The notes beneath the pieces were generated by a model. The model was not told the origin of the DNA. It was given only the letters and a program-made list of their open reading frames with translations, and searched no databases. The translations under genes were made by a program, and so were the position numbers. A DNA stretch of 35,535 bases. It comes from Flavobacteriaceae bacterium. GTDB lineage: Bacteria; Bacteroidota; Bacteroidia; Flavobacteriales; Flavobacteriaceae. Shown here piece by piece: positions 19,552 to 21,962 of this stretch. The stretch covers positions 1-35,535 of the forward strand of contig JABDPU010000255.1 of the NCBI GenBank assembly GCA_013042625.1. Direction: 5' to 3'. How positions within the stretch are numbered: position 1 is the first letter of the stretch; each line of letters opens with the position of its first letter.

Positions 19552-19625
19552 GCCGATATAGCTCAGCTGGCTAGAGCAGCTGATTTGTAATCAGCAGGTC
19601 GTGGGTTCGAGTCCCTCTATCGGCT
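19552..19625 (+). tRNA. tRNA-Thr (anticodon TGT)
   Basis: Acceptor GCCGATA/TATCGGC, anticodon loop TTTGTAA, TTCGAGT T-loop. Confidence 0.96.
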
Positions 19626-19712
19626 CAGAAAGTAAAATTCAGGATAGTTAAACTAGGGACGAGAAGTTTATCCTGAGCGAGGTCGAAGGAAGTCCCTCTA
19701 TCGGCTCAGAAG
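19610..19712 (+). repeat. duplicated tRNA-Thr 3' end plus intervening repeat element
   Basis: GTCCCTCTATCGGCTCAGAA at 19611 and 19692 (81-bp offset) flanking AGGGAC + 31-nt core. Confidence 0.9.
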
Positions 19713-19990: not shown

Positions 19991-20044
19991 AAAAGCGTTA
20001 GCTTTGGGCTGAACGTCGTCACGTTTAACGTGATCACCCGCTCA
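19991..20044 (+). repeat. degenerate duplicate of the tRNA-Gly 3' half
   Basis: 20007..20044 aligns ungapped to 19954..19991 with about 26/38 identities and keeps a T-arm-like hairpin TCACGTTTAACGTGA. Confidence 0.65.
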
Positions 20045-20179: not shown

Positions 20180-20237
20180 GTGACCAAGGTCACGCCTGCC
20201 TGCCGGCAGGCAGGGGTTCAAATCCCGTCATTGGCTC
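20180..20237 (+). repeat. duplicated tRNA-Thr(GGT) 3' end interrupted by a 20-bp palindrome
   Basis: GGTCACG + CCTGCCTGCCGGCAGGCAGG + GGTTCAAATCCCGTCATTGGCTC; identical to the tRNA 3' end once the palindrome (20195..20214) is removed. Confidence 0.88.
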
Positions 20238-21547: not shown

Positions 21548-21593
21548 TTACGGGTTTACCTGTCTGCCGACAGGCGGGGCTCAATACTGAGCG
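21548..21593 (+). repeat. tRNA-Trp 5'-end-like fragment interrupted by a 20-bp near-palindrome
   Basis: TTACGGGTTTA [CCTGTCTGCCGACAGGCGGG] GCTCAATACTGAGC versus tRNA-Trp TTACGGGTTTA GCTCAGTTGGTAGAGC. Confidence 0.65.
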
Positions 21594-21653
21594 ATCAAAA
21601 ACAGGCGAATTCAAAAATAAGGAAGAGCCTTTTATAAAGCTCTTTCAGGGTTT

Positions 21654-21726
21654 ACGGGTTTAGCTCAGTTGGTAGAGCACTGGTCTCCAAAACCAGGTGT
21701 CGGGAGTTCGAGTCTCTCAACCCGTG
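21654..21726 (+). tRNA. tRNA-Trp (anticodon CCA)
   Basis: Acceptor ACGGGTT/AACCCGT, anticodon loop CTCCAAA. Confidence 0.95.
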
Positions 21727-21940
21727 CGAAAGTATAAAGGGAGCACTTTTCAAGAGACGAGAAGTTTATCCCGAGCGGTGTCGAGGGGAGTCTCTCAACC
21801 CGTGCGAAAGTATTAAGGGAGCACTTTTCAAGAGACGAGAAGTTTATCCCGAGCATTATTGAGAAACAAAACATGTTTTGTTTCGAAGATACAAACCGAA
21901 GGTTGACGAGGAGAGTCTCTCAAACCATGCGAAGTGAAAA
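21711..21940 (+). repeat. tandem array of tRNA-Trp 3'-end duplicates (three 3' ends in total)
   Basis: AGTCTCTCAACCCGTGCGAAAGTAT at 21711 and 21789, degenerate AGTCTCTCAAACCATGCGAA at 21914; GACGAGAAGTTTATCCCGAGC in both linkers. Confidence 0.9.
21863..21884. repeat. perfect 22-bp palindrome GAAACAAAACATGTTTTGTTTC
   Basis: Reads identically on both strands; lies inside the second linker of the tRNA-Trp array. Confidence 0.95.
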
Positions 21941-21962
21941 GGATAATTAAAGAATAGCAATA

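Follow-up and report, generated by a model that had tools for sequence, protein, structure and literature searches.

The gene of tRNA-Trp in contig JABDPU010000255.1 (35,535 bp, the whole of which is hereafter referred to as the window) is followed by two units composed of a left arm, a core and a copy of the tRNA tail, while one such unit stands downstream of tRNA-Thr(TGT). Small non-coding insertions of this type, bringing a spare tail copy and a hairpin with an outer arm fitted to it, are present at the 3′ ends of tRNA genes in many Bacteroidota. The array behind tRNA-Trp is probably made of two tandem copies of such a tRNA-targeted insertion, where the helix formed by arm and tail would be a recognition structure for mobility, served by an enzyme acting in trans.

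Units downstream of tRNA-Trp and tRNA-Thr

The window is one contig of the draft Flavobacteriaceae genome G000 (2.81 Mb, 336 contigs, 85% complete). According to names assigned from sequence and gene order, it probably contains, in succession, tRNA-Thr-Tyr-Gly-Thr, tuf, tRNA-Trp, a short ORF at the position of secE, nusG and ribosomal genes. The gene of tRNA-Trp(CCA) (21654..21727, plus strand, as all features below) was detected by ARAGORN and by the Rfam model RF00005, and its tail, counted from T-loop position 59, occupies 21712-21727. It is separated by the spacer X1 (21728..21752) from the first left arm AGAGAC (21753..21758), which is the reverse complement of tRNA-Trp positions 59-64 (GTCTCT) and was assigned both from the sequence and from covariation in 122 copies. 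Then follow the 31-nt core GAGAAGTTTATCCCGAGCGGTGTCGAGGGGA (21759..21789), composed of the joint GAGAAGTTTA and a TCCC..GGGGA hairpin, and the first tail copy GTCTCTCAACCCGTGC (21790..21805), identical to tRNA-Trp 59-74. The second unit begins with X2 (21806..21830), identified by repeat comparison as nearly identical to X1 (family D1), and continues with the second arm AGAGAC (21831..21836) and a core of 78 nt instead of 31 (21837..21914), lengthened by the palindromic insert ATTATTGAGAAACAAAACATGTTTTGTTTCGAAGATACAAACCGAAG. The nested palindromic element at about 21854-21901 has a GAAACAAAACATGTTTTGTTTC core and diverged relatives at loci L143, L226, L248, L251 and L254. The final tail copy GTCTCTCAAACCATGC (21915..21930), behind which the trailer extends as far as the next ORF, may by analogy be the original tail of tRNA-Trp.

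The gene of tRNA-Thr(TGT) (19552..19626, ARAGORN and RF00005) has its tail from position 59 at 19611-19626. Its unit consists of the left arm AGGGAC (19655..19660), reverse complement of tRNA-Thr 59-64 (GTCCCT), the core GAGAAGTTTATCCTGAGCGAGGTCGAAGGAA (19661..19691), seen in the sequence and found by the core-agnostic search, and the tail copy GTCCCTCTATCGGCTC (19692..19707), followed by AGAAGTTCT, which is similar to the trailer AAGTTCTTT of empty sites. All right arms in the window are exact copies of tRNA positions 59-64, and all left arms are their reverse complements. Thus, the pattern of a 31-nt core beside both tRNAs, with arms differing in accordance with their own tRNA, was reproduced as given in the preliminary description; of the “tandem array of the same 31-nt core” the two Trp units stand, while identity in length was lost with the 78-nt second core.

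With up to three mismatches the core pattern occurs 3 times in the window against 0 expected. Searched in the entire draft, its exact 16-mer form also gave 3 matches, all of them inside the window. Two loci alone might match by chance, but the survey of 122 copies described below excludes it. The RNA folding stability of the isolated linkers is not unusual (z = −0.09 and 0.24), so the case rests on covariation rather than on stability, and no Rfam family matched the region 21700-21960 up to E = 1. Other tRNA-derived repeats were also registered in the window. A 5′ fragment of tRNA-Trp (ACGGGTTTA...GCTCA), split by the palindrome CCTGTCTGCCGACAGGCGGG, lies upstream of the intact gene (21550-21597), and the same arrangement is found in genomes G001 and G002. 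A copy of the 3′ part of tRNA-Thr(GGT) with GCCTGCCTGCCGGCAGGCAGG inserted ahead of the T-stem occupies 20186-20237, and a similar copy was seen at tRNA-Val (L020). Downstream of tRNA-Gly a short repeat of its tail end (CCCGCTCA) is present beside a small hairpin (20027-20043).

Covariation of left arms with tRNA tails

Genome contigs were scanned with GAGAAGTTTATCCYGAGC, which yielded at least 119 stretches, a large but incomplete sample. Together with relatives, at least 168 core occurrences were collected, and 135 of 168 among the matches listed follow a tRNA gene of the same strand at a distance below 700 nt. Most of the others still have a tRNA tail, the tRNA itself being partial or lost at the contig end. 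True exceptions are few among the matches listed (L154 and L109; L010, found with a shorter pattern, has neither GAG nor a tRNA), so cores with left arms unrelated to their flank, which the preliminary description named as evidence against its own idea, turned out to be rare.

Among 122 distinct copies, located beside 17 types of tRNA, the left arm of 5-6 nt covaries with tRNA positions 59-64, which extends the proposed match between arm and host tRNA far beyond the two loci of the window. Comparison of each arm with the adjacent 3′ segment, suggested in advance as a check, gave on average 4.87 Watson-Crick pairs of 6 with the own tRNA and at most 3.77 when tails were permuted among elements; the copies share descent to an unknown degree and shuffles therefore exaggerate significance, so that more reliance can be placed on the slid register and on patterns crossed between tRNAs. 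Counted outward from GAGAAG, standard pairs at positions 59, 60, 61, 62, 63 and 64 are formed in 110, 105, 117, 106, 87 and 69 copies of 122, and a slid register lowers their share from 87% to 26-52%. All four pairs (G-C, A-T, C-G and T-A) occur at position 59, and rare tails have matched arms: ACCCG/CGGGT for Gly, TTCTT/AAGAA and CTCCG/CGGAG for Arg, GTCTG/CAGAC for Ile and GCCTT/AAGGC for Trp. Chance is ruled out by the permutation of tails, by the slid register and by the patterns that combine the arm of one tRNA with the tail of another. The pairing covers two bases of the T-loop and the 3′ strand of the T-stem, and the initial interpretation of the arms as two strands of the T-stem had to be corrected accordingly.

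Departures from standard pairing at positions 59-62 are not symmetric: G.U was left in 30 cases of 227 and A.C in 5 of 261, while transversions were nearly equal (8 and 7). Since departures are mostly G.U rather than A.C, it is apparently the tRNA-sense strand on which pairing is judged. This agrees with the pairing constraint assumed initially, and RNA and single-stranded DNA fit alike. Where the local tail copy differs from the tRNA, the arm follows the local copy in 3 cases, the tRNA in 31 and neither in 5. Arm and local copy decay independently, without mutual compensation, and the other initial suggestion, templating of the arm from the host tRNA, also fits if templating took place at birth of the unit. 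A terminator-like hairpin precedes 51 of the 105 tRNA-proximal units. Two unusual arrangements were observed. In L132 (around 488) the core is inverted relative to tRNA-Leu(CAG) with encoded CCA, and a complementary arm and a tail copy still flank it. In L005 (1360-1550) two units with Leu-like tails have no nearby tRNA, and the first of them runs out of an apparent manA start (IWGGEKF), being possibly a recombination product.

Hairpins of different sequence in the same architecture

The search independent of the core sequence was carried out in 400 genomes of the family. The pattern GGGAC-N18-48-Thr tail gave 24 matches in 21 genomes of 19 genera and none with the reversed control; TGGGC-N18-48-Asn tail gave 6 matches, and no Asn tail was combined with a Thr arm (GGGAC-N18-48-Asn tail). 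Distribution of the Thr form is patchy (21 of 400 genomes), and most relatives do not have the unit. GAGAAG starts the linker in 28 of these 30 matches, while the hairpins differ, some of them, such as TACCGC..GCGGTA or CCCGATA..TATCGGG, lacking any GAGC..GTCGA. Fixed spacing of 31 nt is therefore not a property of the unit, as both length and sequence of the hairpin vary. An unrelated core, CAACGAGCG..AGCGAGTTAA, was found in the same architecture behind tRNA-Met in G000 (L026) and tRNA-Leu in G002 (L251), both arms being complementary to their own tRNA tail from position 59, which shows that more than the core is involved. A dispersed REP repeat is ruled out: the remaining matches of TTTATCCYGAGC, found in 11 genomes, lie mostly in coding sequence or stand isolated, with no tRNA nearby.

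Filled and empty sites

Filled tRNA-Thr sites were compared with empty sites of the same genus, and all clean pairs (L264 vs L284, L269 vs L286 and L274 vs L292) belong to tRNA-Thr. In these three pairs 150 bases past the distal tail align to the empty site from the first bases behind the tRNA (scores 278, 248 and 254 of 300), and the spacer X has no counterpart there. L268, broadly consistent with both its empty relatives, is a fourth, supporting case. As the native trailer is behind the distal tail copy and X is extra, the distal tail is the original one. The extra DNA can be described as tail, X, arm and core or, equivalently, as X, arm, core and tail at the tRNA end, since the direct repeat makes it one product: tRNA, X, arm, GAGAAG with hairpin, tail copy from 59 to the tRNA 3′ end and native trailer. 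Thus, insertion into the 3′ part, direct repeat of the tail and native trailer behind the distal copy, by which tRNA-integrating elements are recognized, are all found at tRNA-Thr, and the idea that paired arms are hard to explain by simple insertion does not agree with same-genus empty sites.

The unit is non-coding and measures about 60-140 bp. Its tail copies are approximately 95% identical over positions 59-74, include the encoded CCA in L119, L139, L140 and L142, and are followed by similar sequences in 50 of 93 cases only. For clean pairs, local tandem duplication is ruled out as the founding event, but it is a likely route of array growth. In the pairs of L263, L265 and L270, which are arrays, X resembles the sequence behind the tail.

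Candidate enzyme

Neither a transposase nor an integrase or nuclease was consistently linked to the unit among the loci examined. No Y1 transposase gene was found in the G000 draft, and the core flanks none of the 30 best Y1 loci inspected in 36 genomes, which leaves Y1/RAYT unsupported as a flanked enzyme gene. No integrase lies within the unit, and integrase-like ORFs were seen by eye only beside some copies at partial tRNAs. Judging by such inspection, elements located behind partial tRNA genes next to these ORFs (L092, L097 and L059) appear to sit at the termini of larger integrated elements.

Relatives commonly carry small GIY-YIG genes, and 3 of the 169 core-bearing loci scanned have one near the core. 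In L064 and L072 such a gene separates tRNA-Asn from the core, and in L147 it precedes tRNA-Asn. As read by eye, the order in the first two is tRNA-Asn, GIY-YIG, a hairpin-bearing fragment of tRNA-Asn and then the tRNA-tail element. Location of these genes beside tRNAs with hairpin-bearing fragments makes a trans-acting nuclease a reasonable guess, and at this level small tRNA-adjacent GIY-YIG proteins are the best lead to the enzyme. Inspection by eye also revealed loci (L322, L325, L326, L329, L332 and L335, as well as L064, L072 and L147) where a small GIY-YIG gene adjoins a tRNA and a hairpin-bearing fragment of the same tRNA lies on its far side; L325 has two tandem copies behind tRNA-Arg. 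These genes and tRNA fragments may together form a mobile element of their own, associated with tRNAs. A second kind of small GIY-YIG gene (L312 and L327, also by eye) lies between inverted hairpins, in which the GAGC..GYCGA loop is constant and the complementary stem varies.

Possible mechanism and alternative explanations

Insertion is suggested by comparison with empty sites, the tail repeat, covariation of arms, the zero count in the cross-tRNA control and patchy distribution, as well as by preservation of GAGAAG behind different hairpins, tolerance to G.U but not to A.C and the presence of tandem arrays. The founding insertion would enter the tRNA tail with its junction at T-loop position 58/59, bringing its own tail copy, so that the tRNA stays functional and the original tail is left behind the right end. 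This layout, seen at tRNA-Thr in other genera, is extended to tRNA-Trp, and the Trp array presumably has the same origin as the Thr units. On the tRNA-sense strand the arm would pair with positions 59-64, the tail bases that directly follow the junction, so that a structure of two helices results, that is a variable arm helix, a conserved GAGAAGYYTR joint and a variable inner hairpin. Probably this structure serves for recognition of the right end on single-stranded DNA, or possibly on RNA; the arm may act there like a guide for its own tRNA, a trans-acting enzyme may move the unit, and arrays may grow afterwards through ordinary recombination between tails.

Sense-strand pairing with its excess of G.U over A.C, two covarying helices flanking a conserved joint, as in structured RNA, and short spacers within operons, for instance behind tRNA-Trp in the window, could also be explained at the RNA level. 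The hairpin would then act in the tRNA transcript, in trailer processing or as a decoy or sponge for the T-arm region, with pairing kept by selection on RNA. We consider this unlikely, as about half of the tRNA-proximal units stand behind terminator-like hairpins, the arm does not track a differing local tail copy, most relatives live without the unit and Rfam gave no match. The same low probability is ascribed to template switching during replication, which creates and mends perfect stems in one event and was described for RNA hairpins (PMC8794818). Fold-back synthesis from the nearby tail would make or correct the arm, leaving matched arms as a mutational by-product, and independent decay of arm and tail copy is what one expects of neutral sequence. 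This process alone supplies neither the conserved GAGAAG joint nor the T-loop junction and foreign X, and being strand-symmetric it does not predict the G.U excess, but it may act on top of insertion.

Least probable, and in our opinion very doubtful, is the view that a degenerate tRNA copy took up a hairpin in its T-loop, the arms being simply the two strands of its T-stem. REP-like palindromes do occur inside tRNA fragments, in other genomes as well as in the window (in the Trp 5′ fragment near 21550 and in the copy of Thr-GGT near 20192), and the arm resembles the 5′ strand of the T-stem (3.35/5). However, pairing of the arms starts at position 59, which lies two bases inside the T-loop, and the arms agree with the complement of this segment better than with that strand; nothing tRNA-like is found 5′ of the arm, and X is missing from empty sites. 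Arms of Gly (AGGGT against the strand GCCGG), Arg and Trp in L012 (CAAGG against GGGAG) rule out the arm as the T-stem 5′ strand. We also considered AGAA with A/GTC as a sign of something like the hairpin ribozyme but gave this up, since some tRNAs have A, C or T at position 59 and arm pairing runs across that base.

Based on the preferred insertion reading, the element looks like an undescribed way to colonise tRNA genes without breaking them. One can only tentatively suggest a new kind of mobile element, that is minimal non-coding units with a re-writable guide arm of 5-11 nt, which pairs single-stranded with the tRNA tail, and an own tail copy restoring the tRNA, their mobility being supplied in trans by a nuclease, for instance one of the small tRNA-associated GIY-YIG proteins. 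Among the open-licence papers searched, none describes either such arms at tRNA tails or, in Bacteroidetes, GIY-YIG genes accompanied by tRNA fragments. If true, an arm fitted to each tRNA would be a natural case where mobility is matched to its target while no protein has to be retargeted. Pairing of arm and tail provides a genome-wide handle for finding units, filled and empty pairs in one genus make the mechanism directly testable, and the element bears on why tRNA genes of Bacteroidota are ringed by tRNA fragments and hairpins.

Comparison with known systems

REP elements with RAYT/TnpA-REP (PMC3733652, PMC6006769) share with the unit short hairpins, a 5′ segment able to guide and imperfect stems. 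The foot of the REP hairpin is defined by a GTAG or CGTC tag (PMC3733652), whereas the tRNA-tail element has conserved GAGAAG in its place and neither tag; it is confined to tRNA tails in few copies per genome, its arm is not constant, it flanks no Y1 transposase gene at the 30 best Y1 loci inspected in 36 genomes, and it is not dispersed in many copies between genes. Single-strand transposition of IS200/IS605 is similar in the right-end order of guide, hairpin and paired target, but the guide of our unit is longer and fitted to each target, a target repeat is present, and the G000 draft (85% complete) revealed no Y1 gene, though its missing part may contain one.

Small GIY-YIG genes accompanied by hairpins or tRNA fragments resemble it in the constant GAGC..GYCGA loop, variable complementary stems and hairpin-bearing tRNA fragments, and stand beside tRNA-Asn together with the tRNA-tail element in L064 and L072, though most copies of the latter have no GIY-YIG gene nearby. 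Integrative elements and prophages of tRNA 3′ ends are alike in entry near the 3′ end, direct repeat of the tail, preservation of a functional tRNA and tandem arrays; unlike them, this unit is non-coding, very short, has no integrase and bears a right-end arm covarying with the tRNA. In E. coli, tandem repeats containing the tRNA 3′ end are located downstream of tyrT (rtT). To our knowledge, they have neither a re-fitted complementary arm nor a GAGAAG hairpin, while the element described here spans many tRNA types and genera.
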